34,423 nt of DNA, from NCBI GenBank assembly GCA_903848885.1, contig CAINHL010000039.1, positions 1 through 34,423 of the forward strand, given 5' to 3'. Positions 26,580-34,423 of this stretch are shown in pieces. Under the pieces are notes generated by a model. It saw only the letters and a list, made by a program, of their open reading frames with translations, was not told where the DNA came from and made no database searches. How positions within the stretch are numbered: the stretch's first letter is position 1; each line of letters opens with the position of its first letter. Source of the DNA: an uncultured Actinomycetes bacterium (GTDB lineage Bacteria; Actinomycetota; Acidimicrobiia; Acidimicrobiales; RAAP-2). The position numbers were made by a program, and so were the translations under genes.

Positions 26580-27187
26580 AGCCCCGGCCATCCCACCTTC
26601 CGCAAATAACCATTGACCTGCTCGGTGACTGATTCCAGATCACCGTGAGCGTCCACAATCACCCAGTTGTCGGGGTGGCTGCGCGCTTGTTCCAAGAAAC
26701 CTTCGCGCACGCGTTCGTGAAAGTCACGGGCACTGGACTCGAAACGATCCGCACTGTCGGGATGGCGACGCGCATACGCCACCTCGACATCAACATCACA
26801 AAGAATTGTGATGTCTGGTCGGCACTGACCGATGGCTAATTCAGTGGCGTCGAGAAGTTGCCGTACATCCAAGCCCCGGCCAAAGCCTTGGTAGGCAATG
26901 GTGGAGGCGGCGAAACGATCACTCACCACGTGACGTCCACTCACCAGGGCTGGTTCAATAACGCTGCTGACGTGATGTGAACGATCAGCCAACATCAAGA
27001 GGGCTTCGGTTTCCGGCGACATGGGAGTACTGGCATCTAGCAGCCAGCGACGAAGCTCTGCCCCCAAGGGAGTATCGCCGGGCTCAAAGGTAAAGAGAGC
27101 CTCCGCCAGGGCGGCCACGCGACGAGCTTGGGTGCTCTTGCCGGAGGCGTCGATTCCCTCAAAGGCCACGAAGATACCGCGGGTCAC
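26576..27187 (-). CDS. tmk: Thymidylate kinase
   Basis: IFVAFEGIDASGKSTQARRVAAL; LLMLADRSHHVSSVIEPALVSGRHVVSDRFAASTIAYQGFGRGLD. Confidence 0.94.
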   Translation of the reverse strand: MTRGIFVAFEGIDASGKSTQARRVAALAEALFTFEPGDTPLGAELRRWLLDASTPMSPETEALLMLADRSHHVSSVIEPALVSGRHVVSDRFAASTIAYQGFGRGLDVRQLLDATELAIGQCRPDITILCDVDVEVAYARRHPDSADRFESSARDFHERVREGFLEQARSHPDNWVIVDAHGDLESVTEQVNGYLRKVGWPGL

Positions 27188-29949
27188 TAGTCCTCCGAGC
27201 GAGTGGCTTGAGCGGCCAGGGCGGTGTTTTTGGCGGCACCCTTCTTCACGGCCGCTTTCTTGGTGACTCCAGGTGACTTCTTGGTCGCTGCCTTCTTGGT
27301 GACTTTCTTAGTGACTTTCTTGGCTGCCTTCTTCACGCCCTTGCGGGGTCGTGACGACGGATCGGCGTTGCGACGTTCGGCCAGGAGTTCATTAGCGCGG
27401 TCCAAGGTGAGGTTTTCTACCGTGTCCGCGTTGCGCAGAGTGGCGTTGACTTCCCCGTCGGTGACGTAGTCCCCGAACTTTCCCGTCTTGACCAGAATGT
27501 GCTTCTTGGTCATCTCGTCGATGCCCAAATCCTTCAGAGGGCCCGCGGGGGTGCGGCGTCCGCGTTGCTTGGGTTGGGCCAACAGCGCCAGGGCTGCGTC
27601 CAAGTCCACCGTGAAGATGGAATCTTCGGATTCCAAGGAACGGGTTTCCTTACCCCAGGTGAGATAGGGGCCGTAGCGGCCGTTTTGGGCGAGTACCGGT
27701 TCGGAATCGTCGGGGTGTGGGCCCACGGTTCGTGGCAGGCTCAGAAGTTTCTGGGCTTCTTTGAGGGTCAACGATGCCAGGTCCATGGTGGAGAACAAGG
27801 AAGCCGTCTTGGGTTTGTTCTTGGGATCAACCATCTCTCCGAGTTGAACGTAGGGACCAAAACGTCCGGCCTTGGCGAAGATGGTGAGGCCCGTAGCCTC
27901 ATCGACGCCCAGCGGTCGGTCGTTGCTGGGGGCGGCCAGAAGTTCGAGGGCGCGTTCGACGGTGAGGGCGTCAGGTTCGGTGTCTTCGGGAATGGAGGCT
28001 CGTTCTTCTCCGTGCACGAGGTAGGGACCGTAGCGGCCGGAGCGAACGCTGACGGCATCGCCGTCGGGCGCGAGTCCCAGCGGCAGCGAGTTAATGGCCG
28101 CGAAGTCCAAGTCCAGTTGCTCGGTGGTGGCCTTGTGCAGCCCCATCTGGCGAAACGTGGTCTCGGCGGCGGCGTCACCGAAATAAAACTTTTGCAACCA
28201 GGGTTCAAGTTCCGCCTGGCCTTGGGCGATGAGGTCGAGCTCGTCTTCCATTTGGGCGGTGAACTGATAATCCACCAAGTCGCTGAAGTGCTTCTCCAAA
28301 AGGTTCACTACCGCGAAGGCCCGGAAGGCCGGCACCAAGGACTTACCCTTCTTCCAGACGTAACCACGGCGGTCAATGGTCTTCATCACCGAGGCGTAGG
28401 TGGAAGGACGACCGATACCAAGGTCTTCTAGTTTTTTGATCAAAGTGGCTTCGGAAAAACGGTCTGGTGGCTTGGTGTCGTGGCTCTTGGCGGCCGTTGA
28501 ATCCACCGTGGCCGTCGTGCCCTCGGTCAGACTCGGCAGGATGCGTTCTTGATCGGCCAGCTCCGCTTCGGGGTCATCGGAACCCTCGACGTAGGCCCGG
28601 CGAAAGCCGGCGAATTCAATCCGCAAACCGGTGGCGTTGAGCTCCACCTCGACGGGGCCGTCGTAGGTAGCAACGGCGGCCAGGGTGGTCGAAAGGCGGA
28701 CTCGATCCTGGGTCAAACGTGCGTCCACCATCTGCGAGGCGATGGTGCGCTTCCACACCAAGTCGTAGACGGCTAGCTCGTCGGCACTCAAGGCACGGTT
28801 CGCTTCGTCCAGAGTCTTAAACACTTCTCCGGCCGGCCGAATGGCTTCGTGGGCTTCTTGGGCGTTCTTGACCTTGCGGTCGTAACGGCGAGGACTGTCG
28901 GCCACGTAATCGTCGCCGAACATCTCGGCGGCCTGCGAACGAGCCGCCGAAATAGCTTCGTTCGACAAGGTGGTCGAGTCGGTGCGCATGTAAGTAATCC
29001 AGCCTTGTTCGTACAACCGCTGGGCGGCGCGCATCGTACGCTCCGGGTCGAATTTGAGTTTGCGACTGGCCTCGATCTGCAGCGACGAGGTCATAAAAGG
29101 CGCTTGGGGACGTTGCACCCGCGGGGTCGAGGTAATGGAATTAATGGACAAAGATGCACCCACGAGGGCGGTGGCCAGGGCTTCGGCGGAGGGCTGCAAC
29201 AGAATTTCCACCTTGCCGGAACCCTCTAAATGACCCGCGGCGTCGAAGTTCTTGCCCGACGCCAAAGCACCACCATTAATAAGGTCAACGGTGGCTTCAA
29301 AATTGCCCCCGGCCGCGTGGGCCTGGGCGACCACGTCATACCAATTGGCACTGGTAAAGGCCATTCGTTCACGCTCACGCTCGGTGACTAAACGCACCGC
29401 CACCGACTGCACGCGCCCCGCCGAACGAGCCTTGTCCACGGCGCGCCACAGGACCGGGGAGACTTCGTAGCCCACTAGACGGTCCAGAAAACGACGGCCC
29501 TCTTGGGCTTCGACCAAGTGAAGGTCTAAGTCCCGGGTGTCGTTAACGGCCTTTTCGATGGCCGCGGGGGTGATTTCGTGAAAGACCATCCGTTTGACGG
29601 GGACCTTGGGTTTGAGGACTTCTTGAAGGTGCCACGCGATGGCCTCTCCCTCGCGGTCTTCATCGGTGGCCAGATAGAGCTCGTCGACTTCTTTGAGGGC
29701 CGCTTTGAGCTCCGCCACGATCTTTTTGCGGTCCGTAGAGACCACGTATATAGGAGTGAAACCATTGTTCACGTCAATGCCCAGACGGGCCCACTTTTCC
29801 TTTTTCACCGCGGCGGGAATGTCGCTGGCGCTCTCGGGAAGGTCACGAATATGGCCGATGGAGGGCTTGACGATGTAGTCCTTGCCGAGCATGGCTTGAA
29901 TGCGGGTGGCCTTGGCGACCGACTCCACGATTACTAACGCGCGTGCCAT
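27187..29949 (-). CDS. topA: DNA topoisomerase I
   Basis: ALVIVESVAKATRIQAMLGKDYIVKPSIGHIRDLP; TDEDREGEAIAWHL; GWITYMRTDSTTLS; several C-terminal GRYGPY / GRFGPY repeats; Lys/Ala-rich basic tail. Confidence 0.97.
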   Translation of the reverse strand: MARALVIVESVAKATRIQAMLGKDYIVKPSIGHIRDLPESASDIPAAVKKEKWARLGIDVNNGFTPIYVVSTDRKKIVAELKAALKEVDELYLATDEDREGEAIAWHLQEVLKPKVPVKRMVFHEITPAAIEKAVNDTRDLDLHLVEAQEGRRFLDRLVGYEVSPVLWRAVDKARSAGRVQSVAVRLVTERERERMAFTSANWYDVVAQAHAAGGNFEATVDLINGGALASGKNFDAAGHLEGSGKVEILLQPSAEALATALVGASLSINSITSTPRVQRPQAPFMTSSLQIEASRKLKFDPERTMRAAQRLYEQGWITYMRTDSTTLSNEAISAARSQAAEMFGDDYVADSPRRYDRKVKNAQEAHEAIRPAGEVFKTLDEANRALSADELAVYDLVWKRTIASQMVDARLTQDRVRLSTTLAAVATYDGPVEVELNATGLRIEFAGFRRAYVEGSDDPEAELADQERILPSLTEGTTATVDSTAAKSHDTKPPDRFSEATLIKKLEDLGIGRPSTYASVMKTIDRRGYVWKKGKSLVPAFRAFAVVNLLEKHFSDLVDYQFTAQMEDELDLIAQGQAELEPWLQKFYFGDAAAETTFRQMGLHKATTEQLDLDFAAINSLPLGLAPDGDAVSVRSGRYGPYLVHGEERASIPEDTEPDALTVERALELLAAPSNDRPLGVDEATGLTIFAKAGRFGPYVQLGEMVDPKNKPKTASLFSTMDLASLTLKEAQKLLSLPRTVGPHPDDSEPVLAQNGRYGPYLTWGKETRSLESEDSIFTVDLDAALALLAQPKQRGRRTPAGPLKDLGIDEMTKKHILVKTGKFGDYVTDGEVNATLRNADTVENLTLDRANELLAERRNADPSSRPRKGVKKAAKKVTKKVTKKAATKKSPGVTKKAAVKKGAAKNTALAAQATRSED
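27235..27345 (-). repeat. Low-complexity Lys/Ala-rich C-terminal tail repeats of topA
   Basis: Encodes KGVKKAAKKVTKKVTKKAATKKSPGVTKKAAVKKGAAKN; tandem ttcttggtgac / ttcttagtgac DNA repeats. Confidence 0.75.
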
Positions 29950-30055: not shown

Positions 30056-32428
30056 CTATTCGTCAGTGGCCGGACCGGCCACAATTTCGTAGGTGGGATT
30101 CATAATGACCGCTTCGCGGTCGTGAGATTGCACGGTGCCGGTGATGAGCAAGCGGGTACCGCGCTCGATGCCGGGGATCATGCTGCGGCCCTGAAAGACC
30201 AGCGAAATAGAACCGGTGGCGTCGGCCACCACGCAGCGCAGCTGCTTGTTACCGTCTCCCGACAGCGTCATGGAACGCACGCGTCCGGCCACGGTCACCA
30301 CGTCACGAAACTTCAATTCTCCGATGGGTACCGTATCGGCGTTCGAGGCACGCTCCGCTAATTGCTCGTCGGCTTCTAAGTGAGAGTCTTCGCGCAGCGC
30401 GCCGCGGGTGACTTCGTCGCTGAGCACCTCGTGATCCGTTGCCAGATCGCTCAGAGCGCGCTGGGCCATACGGTACGGAATGATCGTGGCCGCGGTGCGC
30501 GGCACGTGCATGACGGCGTTGGCAATCGAGTCCGCGGTGCGGTCGTGCAGGAGCCGTTGGATGCGGGAGTTAAAGCCCCGGCGCGGCAAGATCACCATGG
30601 CGAAGACCTTGGGGTCACGCACCATGTCCGAGACCACGTCGAGAGCGGCACGGTCCACGCGACGGTCTTCACACTCCATGATCTCGAGCGGGATGGACGA
30701 CGAGGCCGAATCCTTTCGACCCCAACGCTCTTCGAGTTCCTTGGTAACGGCCGGGTCAATGTCAAAGTGAATTGCGCGAAAGGCTGACGAGTTAAGCGTC
30801 TTGCAATAGGCCAGCGCGCGTTCGGTGGCCAAGTCGTATTGATCGACGAAGACCACGATGCGGTTGTGCGAGGTGGTGAGAGAACCAGACGTGCTCCCCG
30901 ACTCGAAAGCATCTTCTTCTCGGCTGTAGAGCTTGTGGAGGTGTAAAAGACCCCAGAACATAAAGGGCGCGATGCAGACCACCATCCACGCACCTTCACC
31001 GAACTTCACCACACCGAAGATAAGGGCCACGATGGAACAGGTGGCGCAGGAAAGACCGTTAACCACCACACCCACGCGCCAACGTCCTTCGCGGCGGGTC
31101 CAGTGACGCTTCGCCATTCCAGCGCCCGCCATGGTGAAGGCGGTGAAGACTCCAATGGCGTAGAGGGAAATCAAACCGTTCACACTGGCGTTAAAGACGA
31201 AGATCAATACCAGTGCCATGGCGCCTAGCCAGATGATGCCGGTAGAAAAGGCCAGTCGGTGCCCCCGCTTGGTGAGCTGGCGGGGCAGGTACTTGTCGGT
31301 GGCGACAAAGTTTGCCAAGAAGGGGAAGCCGTTAAAGGCGGTGTTGGCACCGGTGTACAAAATAGCCACCGTGGCCAGCTGCACTAAGAGATAAATGATG
31401 TGGCCAAAGCCGTGGGCGCCGAAAACGGCGGAGACTTCTTGTGAGACCACGGTGGGCGAACCGGCTTCGTAGGGCAGGGCGTGCGTCCAGGTGGCCAACA
31501 AGGTCGTACCGATGAGCAGAAAGCTCAGGATGCTGGCCATGATGACCATGACCTTGCGCGCGTTTTGTGCCTCGGGCCGTTTGAAGCCCGACACGGAGTC
31601 CGAGATGGCCTCGAGTCCGGTCAATGATGAACCACCGTTGGCATACGCGCGCAGCAAGGTGAGAAAGGCCACACCGAACAAGAAGCCGTGGCCTTGCGTA
31701 CCCAGGTGCCCACCCACCAAGACATTGGCGGCCGGCTGTTGCACGACTTTGAGTGCACCCGAGATGTGCTTGACCAGACCCACGATGATGGTGAGCGACA
31801 TCATGGCGATGAAGAAATAGGAGGGGAAGGCGAAGTAGGCCCCCGCTTCTTTGAGACCACGGAGGTTTCCGTAAATCAAAAAAGCCACTACCCCCACGGT
31901 GATCCACAAGGTGTAGGGGAGAAGAGAAGGAAAGGCGCTGGTCATCGCTGCGGTGCCCGCTGAACTTTGCACCGCCACCGTCACGATGTAGTCAATGAGC
32001 AAGGCCACCGCGGTGACCTGGGCGGTCTTGGGACCGAAGTTGTCCCGGGTGACGATGTAACTGCCACCCTTAATTGAATACGCCCCGATGACGTCGAGGT
32101 AACTCAGGGTGACCAAAAACAACACGCCCAAGATGACGAACATGATGGGAACCAGCAGCGAGAAGGCCGCGAGACCAATGGCCGGGGTGAGCTGAGTGAG
32201 AATCTGCTCGGCGCCGTAGGACGAGGAGGAAATACAGTCCGGAGCCAAGACGCCCAATGCAATGGGGTTGTTGAGTCGTTCGCCGCGCAACTGTTCGGAG
32301 ACGTAGGGCTTGCCTAAGAAGATCCGCTTGAGTCGGTAGCCCAGAGTTTCGGGGTAGAAATTACGCGTATCCGCGTGTGAGGTGAGGACCGGCGAGACAC
32401 GTGCAATCTGTTCACCGGAATTATCCAC
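30056..32428 (-). CDS. KimA-like APC-superfamily (potassium) permease with C-terminal OB-fold domain
   Basis: RIFLGKPYVSEQLRGERLNNPIALGVLAPDCISSSSYGAEQIL; GGSYIVTRDNFGP..LLIDYIVTVAVQSSAGTAAMTSAFPSL; SSLTGLEAISDSV; cytosolic USP-like region IVVFVDQYDLATERAL; OB-fold DVVTVAGRVRSMTLSGDGNKQLRCVVADATGSISLVFQGRSMIPGIERGTRLLITGTVQSHDREAVIMNPTYEIV. Confidence 0.85.
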   Translation of the reverse strand: MDNSGEQIARVSPVLTSHADTRNFYPETLGYRLKRIFLGKPYVSEQLRGERLNNPIALGVLAPDCISSSSYGAEQILTQLTPAIGLAAFSLLVPIMFVILGVLFLVTLSYLDVIGAYSIKGGSYIVTRDNFGPKTAQVTAVALLIDYIVTVAVQSSAGTAAMTSAFPSLLPYTLWITVGVVAFLIYGNLRGLKEAGAYFAFPSYFFIAMMSLTIIVGLVKHISGALKVVQQPAANVLVGGHLGTQGHGFLFGVAFLTLLRAYANGGSSLTGLEAISDSVSGFKRPEAQNARKVMVIMASILSFLLIGTTLLATWTHALPYEAGSPTVVSQEVSAVFGAHGFGHIIYLLVQLATVAILYTGANTAFNGFPFLANFVATDKYLPRQLTKRGHRLAFSTGIIWLGAMALVLIFVFNASVNGLISLYAIGVFTAFTMAGAGMAKRHWTRREGRWRVGVVVNGLSCATCSIVALIFGVVKFGEGAWMVVCIAPFMFWGLLHLHKLYSREEDAFESGSTSGSLTTSHNRIVVFVDQYDLATERALAYCKTLNSSAFRAIHFDIDPAVTKELEERWGRKDSASSSIPLEIMECEDRRVDRAALDVVSDMVRDPKVFAMVILPRRGFNSRIQRLLHDRTADSIANAVMHVPRTAATIIPYRMAQRALSDLATDHEVLSDEVTRGALREDSHLEADEQLAERASNADTVPIGELKFRDVVTVAGRVRSMTLSGDGNKQLRCVVADATGSISLVFQGRSMIPGIERGTRLLITGTVQSHDREAVIMNPTYEIVAGPATDE

Positions 32429-32504
32429 GTTCTACATCCTACGACTCGCTAAGAACTTTCCGAAGAAACTTGCGTTGCTCCTCTAAAGGTGGTCAGATAG
32501 GAAG

Positions 32505-33161
32505 GTGCACGTGGTCATTGTGGGTTGTGGAAGAGTCGGATCTGATTTGGCGACCCAACTCTCCGAAGCCGGACACTCCGTGTCAATCATCGACCAAAAG
32601 CGTGACGCCTTTCGCCGTCTCGGTCCGTCTTTTTCTGGAACCACCGTGGTGGGTTCCGGCTTTGACCGCGACACCTTACGCGACGCCGGACTTGCCCAGG
32701 CCGACGCTTTTGCCGCGGTAACTAGTGGGGATAACACCAACATTCTGTGTGCCCGCATCGCGCGCGAAAAGTACTCCATCTCCAACGTGGTGGCGCGTAT
32801 CTACGACCCCCGCCGTGCTTCCATCTACCAAAAGCTCGGCATTCCGACGGTGGCCACGGTGGCTTGGACCACGCAGCAGGTCAAAAGATGGCTCATTCCC
32901 GGAGATAACTCGTGGGTCTGGACCGACACCAACAACACCATCTTCTTAGTGCAGCGTGTTCTCCCCGACCACCTTGCGGGCAAGCACCTCCACGTTTTGA
33001 ACAACGGCCACGACGTGCGCGTCGTCGGTGTCACCCGGGCCGGCAAGGGCCGCCTCGACGTTGCCGAACTCATCGGTCAAGAAGACGACTTGGTCGCGCT
33101 CATGGTCACCGATCACGGCCTCAAGGAACTCGAACTCATGCTGCAAGGACCCCGCTCATGA
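32505..33161 (+). CDS. TrkA family potassium uptake regulatory protein (first copy)
   Basis: HVVIVGCGRVGSDLATQLSEAGHSVSIID; GFDRDTLRDAGLAQADAFAAVTSGDNTNILCARIAREKY; C-terminal RCK-C-like half. Confidence 0.92.
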   Translation: MHVVIVGCGRVGSDLATQLSEAGHSVSIIDQKRDAFRRLGPSFSGTTVVGSGFDRDTLRDAGLAQADAFAAVTSGDNTNILCARIAREKYSISNVVARIYDPRRASIYQKLGIPTVATVAWTTQQVKRWLIPGDNSWVWTDTNNTIFLVQRVLPDHLAGKHLHVLNNGHDVRVVGVTRAGKGRLDVAELIGQEDDLVALMVTDHGLKELELMLQGPRS

Positions 33162-33823
33162 AAATTGTGATTGCCGGAGGCGGTTCCGTAGGCGTGGCCA
33201 TCGCCCGTGACTTGCTGGAACGTCACCACGACGTCACCCTGCTCGAACAGCGCACGGACGTGGCCGACAAAGTACGTGGACAGATTCCCAACCTCAACGT
33301 GGTGACCTGTGATGCCTGCGAGGTGAGTTCCCTCGAACGGGCCGGTATGCGTAGCGCGGACGTGGTGATTGCCGCCACCGGCGATGACGAAGACAACTTG
33401 GTGCTCAGTTGGCTCTCCAAGCAGGAATTCGCAGTCCCTCGCGTCATTGCGCGGGTCAATAATTCACGCAATCAATGGCTCTTCGATGAGAGCTGGGGCG
33501 TCGACATGCACGTCTCCACCCCCGCACTCATTACCTCGCTGGTCGACGAAGTCGTTGAAGTGGGTTCGGTCATTAACTTGATGGACCTCGGCAGCAGCCA
33601 TACCAAGTTGGTGGAAGTCACCTTGGCGACTGACTCTCCCGCCGTGGGCGTGACCATTGAGGACTTGCACTTGCCCGACGGTGCGCGGGTCGTGGCCGTA
33701 GTCCGCGAAGATCAGCCGCTGAATCCCAATGCATCTTTGAAATTCATGGAGGGCGACCACGTGGTGATTATGGCGCGCCCCGACTCGGTCGAGTCCCTCA
33801 ACGGCACTTTGATCAAGGAATAA
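33158..33823 (+). CDS. TrkA family potassium uptake regulatory protein (second copy)
   Basis: MKIVIAGGGSVGVAIARDLLERHHDVTLLEQ; ADVVIAATGDDEDNLVLSWLSKQEF; C-terminal RCK-C-like half. ATGA overlap with the first trkA. The ORF-track start at 32912 is too far upstream. Confidence 0.93.
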   Translation: MKIVIAGGGSVGVAIARDLLERHHDVTLLEQRTDVADKVRGQIPNLNVVTCDACEVSSLERAGMRSADVVIAATGDDEDNLVLSWLSKQEFAVPRVIARVNNSRNQWLFDESWGVDMHVSTPALITSLVDEVVEVGSVINLMDLGSSHTKLVEVTLATDSPAVGVTIEDLHLPDGARVVAVVREDQPLNPNASLKFMEGDHVVIMARPDSVESLNGTLIKE

Positions 33824-33838: not shown

Positions 33839-34423
33839 ATGAAGGCCGCCTTTTTCGATCTCGACAAAACACTGATAGCAAAGTCGTCGATCATTGCCCT
33901 CGGGCCCGAGTTACACGCCCGTGGATTTATTCACCGCTCCACCCTGGTCCGGAGCGTGGGACACCACTTGCTCTTCAATCTCTTTGGTGCTGACCAGCGC
34001 AAGATGGAAAAAATACGCACCACCGTGGGCAACCTCTCCGTGGGTTGGGACAGCAACGAAGTGCGTCGCATGGTGGAAGAAACCATCACTTCGGTGATTG
34101 AACCTTTGATCTACGCCGAAGCCCTCGAACTCATCGATCAGCACCAAGCCGCGGGTGACGAGGTCTGGGTGGTGAGTGCCTCACCCGAAGACATTGTCAT
34201 CCCCTTCGTTCACTTGCTCGGTCTCACGGGGGCGATCGCTACTCGTCCCGGAATCGATATGAAGGGTCGCTACACCGGCAAGATTGATTTCTATTGCCAG
34301 GGAGACCAGAAGGCCGAAGCTATTCGCGCCCTCGCGGCTGAACGAGGAATTAATCTCGCCGAGTCCAGTGCCTATTCCGATTCGGGAACCGATGTCCCCA
34401 TGCTCGAGTCGGTGGGGCTCCCA
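33839..34423 (+). CDS. HAD-IB family hydrolase (SerB-like phosphatase), truncated by right window edge
   Basis: Manual translation: MKAAFFDLDKTLIAKSSIIALGPELHARGF..EVWVVSASPEDIVIPFVHLLGL..GKIDFYCQGDQKAEAIRALAAERGINLAESSAYSDSGTDVPMLESVG. HAD motifs DxDxT, SASP and SDSxxDxPML present. Not in the ORF track because it runs off the window. Confidence 0.88.
   Translation, partial: MKAAFFDLDKTLIAKSSIIALGPELHARGFIHRSTLVRSVGHHLLFNLFGADQRKMEKIRTTVGNLSVGWDSNEVRRMVEETITSVIEPLIYAEALELIDQHQAAGDEVWVVSASPEDIVIPFVHLLGLTGAIATRPGIDMKGRYTGKIDFYCQGDQKAEAIRALAAERGINLAESSAYSDSGTDVPMLESVGLP

Follow-up and report, generated by a model that had tools for sequence, protein, structure and literature searches.

In mycobacteria and streptomycetes, we take the arrangement to be a permease gene divergent from two TrkA genes (Rv2690c / Rv2691-Rv2692), with a small OB-fold protein, Rv2694c, encoded nearby. 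In M. tuberculosis, the Trk system has been described as consisting of just two TrkA proteins (PMC13163235), and a transposon screen found a phenotype common to ceoB and its neighbor Rv2690c (PMC12216072). In Streptomyces, according to a 2026 synteny paper, trkA and kdpD/kdpE have an OB-fold protein encoded nearby (PMC13118837). KimA of Bacillus subtilis (BsKimA; PDB 6s3k, 8b70 and 8b71), a KUP-family K+/H+ symporter, is inhibited by c-di-AMP, and its cytosolic domain has been termed PPAT-like (PMC10284832). In the literature that we searched, we found no description of a KimA-OB or KdpD-OB fusion, or of an OB in a kdp operon of the order Acidimicrobiales.

We analyzed a stretch of 34,423 nucleotides (the window), which makes up an entire contig of a draft genome from this order (1.56 Mb, 97% complete). 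The locus shares its gene set (permease, two TrkA, small OB) with the mycobacterial ceoB-ceoC/Rv2690c region and the Streptomyces trkA/kdpDE cluster. However, the OB is a separate protein in those regions, whereas in the window it is fused to the permease. The features are listed in Table 1.

Table 1. Features of the kimA-OB locus in window coordinates
Feature	Position	Strand	Description
topA	27187..29949	-	downstream of kimA-OB
kimA-OB fusion gene	30056..32428	-	790 aa, GTG start, single open frame
OB-fold domain, PF01336	30077..30334	-	residues 699-784; six-stranded model
Linker	30335..30448	-	about residues 661-698; helix predicted ahead of OB
KimA cytosolic domain	30449..30928	-	about residues 501-660; c-di-AMP pocket positions altered
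KimA/APC-fold transmembrane domain	30929..32338	-	residues 31-500
Shared divergent intergenic region	32429..32504	.	76 bp
trkA1	32505..33161	+	RCK/TrkA_N, CeoB-like, divergent from kimA-OB
trkA2	33158..33823	+	TrkA_N + TrkA_C, CeoC-like; 4-base overlap with trkA1
HAD-family phosphatase gene	33839..34423		after trkA pair; cut by contig end

A KimA-type permease with a C-terminal OB-fold domain

An initial annotation, made from the sequence alone, had proposed that the gene encodes a relative of KimA with an OB-fold domain at its C terminus, and both parts of this proposal were confirmed. Residues 31-634 match BsKimA (PDB 6s3k; phmmer E 2.5e-87), the transmembrane and cytosolic domains corresponding to the full-length protein, and the permease part gives a Pfam match to PF13520 (E 1.8e-21). 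The residues compared for K+ coordination and proton coupling, whose roles are taken from PMC6994465 and PMC10284832, are all conserved: D64, Y71, T150, T270, E273, and Y423 are equivalent to BsKimA D36, Y43, T121, T230, E233, and Y377. From this conservation we infer that the product is a KimA-type K+/H+ symporter. A region that had been read as USP-like is instead the KimA cytosolic domain. The window protein differs from BsKimA in its additional C-terminal OB, in its altered c-di-AMP pocket, and in having two TrkA genes as partners.

The OB itself was recognized by Pfam as PF01336 at residues 711-782 (E 7.5e-9), with 35.8 bits against a gathering cut-off of 27, and PF01336 is also matched, at an E value of 0.01, by 25 of the 26 family members compared. 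Modeling with AlphaFold2 from three sequences yielded a six-stranded barrel of OB topology, with one confident model out of five (pLDDT 83, compared to about 40-44 for the other four). The top PDB matches of this model in Foldseek (E about 1e-4) were mostly OB proteins, namely RPA, POT1, CST, LysRS, and AsnRS. A full-length AlphaFold model, built from a shallow alignment, reached a pLDDT of 36 and is unusable for placing the OB relative to the cytosolic domain. The nearest named sequence relative of the OB is the RecG wedge (NCBIfam best E 9e-8 to 1.5e-7). Unlike RecG, the window protein has no helicase domains and carries its OB at the C terminus of a permease; the loop after strand 3 reads G-R-(R)-x-[IV]-x-G in the OB family, and the score falls far under the RecG cut-off. 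We rejected the possibility that the OB is a stray piece of RecG, as RecG-type matches form a separate, lower-scoring set in frames of about 700 aa or more.

The window comes from a draft assembly in 163 contigs, in which two genes could have been merged by an assembly or annotation artefact. However, permease and OB occupy a single unbroken frame in 30 of the 37 genomes of the genus, including the window's own. In four others (G003, G004, G011, and G020), a permease fragment continues into the OB, and where the remainder is absent the matches end at contig ends; in G018 the contig ends before the OB is reached, and two incomplete genomes of the genus gave no match. The fusion recurs without internal stops at 62-83% identity in same-genus genomes and at 41-49% in several other families, and is therefore neither a chance event nor the product of a missed stop or frameshift. 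With the frame continuous in dozens of independently assembled genomes and its breaks within the genus coinciding with contig ends, assembly error is ruled out as well, and an artefact of either kind is scarcely conceivable.

Fusions of kimA and OB recur across many families of the order, and separate small OBs are found elsewhere in the phylum. In the permease tree, the fused permeases form one well-supported clade, which we call type A, and permeases with an adjacent OB on the same strand branch both just outside and within the fused group. This pattern fits a history in which adjacency came first and fusion after, followed by some later fission, a direction that is not provable from the tree. 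One genome of another family (G153, locus L120 on contig G153:C7) carries an Acidimicrobiia-type kimA-OB fusion that shows 46% identity and branches within the clade of the order, and a genome of the same genus as G153 has an apparent broken remnant of such a fusion (L119, G203:C1). The nested position, together with this remnant, suggests horizontal transfer of kimA-OB. At another locus (L041:4604-9706), two kimA-OB fusion genes lie in tandem with a trkA pair alongside. A third KimA clade, without an OB and with F377 and H337, was seen in a few genomes (L059, L061, L062, and L072).

The surroundings of the gene also recur. In the window, topA shares the strand of kimA-OB and lies downstream of it, and the downstream position recurs in several families of the order (e.g., L031, L039, L142, L144, and L155-L158); this link between topoisomerase I and the K+ importer is conserved. 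The HAD-family phosphatase gene keeps its place after the trkA pair in L031, L144, L155, and L156.

The OB family beside KimA, TrkA, and Kdp genes

We examined an even sample of the phylum (247 genomes), taking OB matches with E <= 1e-13, a threshold set at a natural gap above the RecG-type matches. Of 75 such OBs, 70 are fused to a KimA-like permease or lie within 5 kb of one. The count becomes 73 of 78 when three weaker matches, noticed through their siting beside or inside permeases, are added. A permease is present in 73 of the 74 genomes with an OB (Fisher p about 2e-43, a value that overstates independence because the genomes are related). The TrkA pair usually accompanies the OB and the KimA-like permease. 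Arrangements varied and included OB next to trkA2-trkA1 and then kimA; the trkA pair next to OB-kimA; kimA and OB adjacent on one strand; and the fused form. In Chloroflexi, kimA-trkA-trkA stand in a row, and no OB was found in the 5-kb flanks of these loci. Two loci (L125 and L129) from genomes that are Streptomyces-like or mycobacterium-like in size encode a DUF3159 membrane protein (Pfam) in the space that separates the stand-alone OB from trkA2 of the pair; this protein is another candidate component of the K+ locus.

A second group of OBs, which the initial annotation had not foreseen, was found in the order. We selected weaker matches to the OB profile without knowledge of their context and added two Kdp-linked cases already noticed (G028 and G056), giving 16 loci. 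In 14 of these, kdpC is directly beside the OB, and kdpD is next in most; the remaining two are near kdpA fragments at contig ends. The OB gene of G056 overlaps kdpC by 4 bases and is located just ahead of kdpD, while in G028 the OB is the N terminus of the KdpD protein itself. In Kdp operons, members of this second OB group typically lie between kdpC and kdpD. These OBs are barely or not at all recognized by Pfam (E 0.07 or nothing). Nevertheless, when a profile was trained on OBs linked to KimA and Trk alone, it recovered all 16 loci (E 1e-13 to 1e-24), with zero matches in reversed sequences, and two of the Kdp-linked OBs had already been retrieved with the single window protein as query. 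The OB tree has too few columns for deep branching; its Kdp, Trk, and KimA labels are clustered, without each forming one clade. Two K+ islands (L154 in G308 and L138 in G088) combine kimA, the trkA pair, and OB with kdp genes within about 10-20 kb.

Together, these surveys show that the OB family is tied to KimA, to KimA/TrkA, and to Kdp. Because Kdp is mechanistically unrelated to KimA, its association with the OB is the strongest evidence that the family belongs to K+ uptake as such. The initial annotation had treated the fusion as a Rosetta stone linking an uncharacterized OB family to K+ transport. This reading is supported, as split forms, in which the permease has a separate small OB next door, are widespread and the family extends to Kdp operons.

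The TrkA pair and the c-di-AMP pocket

The divergent trkA pair of the initial annotation is present as described, 76 bp from kimA-OB. An Rfam search of the region between them found no element. TrkH (PF02386) is absent from the window's genome and from all 37 genomes of the genus, so that, compared to a Trk system composed of TrkH/TrkG and TrkA, the TrkH/TrkG membrane subunit is missing. Searches of the window's own genome also found no KdpA and no K_trans (classical Kup), and the only strong TrkA_N proteins in it are the pair adjoining kimA-OB. Among genomes of the order outside the genus, TrkH occurs in 6/6 that have no KimA and is missing from 15/18 that have one (p 0.0006). This complementary distribution argues that KimA-like permeases would substitute for TrkH. 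Most plausibly, the TrkA pair serves KimA.

A hint of c-di-AMP regulation in the initial annotation was not borne out. The diadenylate cyclase domain (PF02457) was found in 0/37 genomes of the genus, the window's included, compared to 21/24 other genomes of the order. We compared the binding pocket at the positions given by the structure of KimA with c-di-AMP (PMC10284832). At BsKimA positions V457 (the end of TM12), V506, F568, N580, and Q581, the window protein has E, F, R, D, and R, while R337 and H579 are kept. The OB-fused clade as a whole has E457, mostly F/L/I at 506, R568, and H-D-R-T at 579-582, in cyclase-positive genomes too, and nearly all of its members keep Arg337 and the transport residues. 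Since the replacement residues are well conserved, the pocket looks re-specialized rather than decayed. The TrkA-linked permeases of this order and of Streptomyces- and mycobacterium-like genomes mostly keep V457, V506, (F/Y)568, and H579-N580-Q581-S/T582. Some other TrkA-linked groups are also without the pocket, so its loss is not unique to the fusion. To our knowledge, the c-di-AMP pocket is not universal in the KUP family, and we did not count it as defining.

These data bear on whether the OB could be an extra c-di-AMP sensor on a c-di-AMP-regulated KimA. The inhibition of BsKimA by c-di-AMP (PMC10284832) and the cyclase in many other families of the order would favor such a role, but the genus has no cyclase, and the OB-fused clade replaces the pocket even in cyclase-positive genomes, where type-B permease copies keep it. 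We consider this explanation highly improbable and, with the cyclase missing and the pocket replaced, rejected c-di-AMP sensing by the window protein for the genus. Nor is the OB simply a stand-in for c-di-AMP sensing, as the pocket is intact in TrkA-type KimA that has an OB alongside.

Possible roles of the OB module

We propose that the OB probably works on the cytosolic side as a regulatory or coupling module for K+ uptake, acting through a ligand other than c-di-AMP or through a partner. The gene linkage of OB, KimA, TrkA, and Kdp indicates shared function or regulation, not mechanism. According to our model, the OB family would serve Actinomycetota as an accessory module dedicated to K+ uptake. 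Ancestrally, the OB may have been a free-standing small protein whose gene neighbored those of KimA and a pair of TrkA (RCK) subunits. It is also encoded between kdpC and kdpD, and in the Acidimicrobiia-type order it would have become covalently fused to a single KimA clade (type A). In the fused protein, the OB, presumably placed in the cytosol, would sit on the cytosolic domain, a dimer through which c-di-AMP inhibition reaches the membrane gate in Bacillus. What it binds there may be a small ligand, either a short nucleic acid or a nucleotide that is not c-di-AMP, or else a partner, for instance the TrkA subunits; binding would change the cytosolic domain so that the transporter is opened or trapped. 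In Kdp, the OB might act at the KdpC/KdpD interface. Its role would be regulatory rather than purely structural. Still more tentatively, and on the doubtful side, a single OB-based control module may be common to KimA, KimA/TrkA, and Kdp in Actinomycetota, and in OB-fused KimA it would work alongside the re-specialized cytosolic pocket, which would sense a nucleotide other than c-di-AMP.

A purely structural or docking function, in which the OB stabilizes the dimer of KimA or brings in the TrkA (RCK) pair with no small-molecule ligand, would explain why the OB accompanies KimA and the TrkA pair throughout the phylum, and would give a target to a TrkA pair that has no TrkH to act on in its own genome. 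OB folds also serve as protein-protein modules. On the other hand, OBs occur in Kdp operons, where no TrkA partner is needed, and the Chloroflexi KimA-TrkA-TrkA loci without an OB within 5 kb indicate that it is not required for KimA/TrkA pairing; we regard docking alone as rather unlikely. We judge it unlikely that the OB is an RNA- or DNA-binding domain that tethers nucleic acid to the membrane transporter or acts in regulation of the operon. PF01336 and the RecG wedge, the closest sequence families, are nucleic-acid-binding OBs, RPA, POT1, and LysRS are structural neighbors, and the GR(R) motif is conserved in the OB family. However, the net charge of the fused OBs averages only about +1.5 (range -3 to +8), which makes them weakly basic; the OB of the window is near neutral, and there are other members of the OB fold whose ligands are small molecules or proteins.

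An uncharacterized and widely conserved small OB family gains a concrete pathway, K+ uptake, along three lines: fusion to KimA, the neighborhood of the TrkA pair, and membership of Kdp operons, including fusion to KdpD. The KimA-like permease becomes a candidate membrane partner for the two TrkA proteins where TrkH is absent, and c-di-AMP-independent control of KimA becomes testable. If the common control module proposed above is real, lineages that lost c-di-AMP synthesis would still keep nucleotide control over K+ import.
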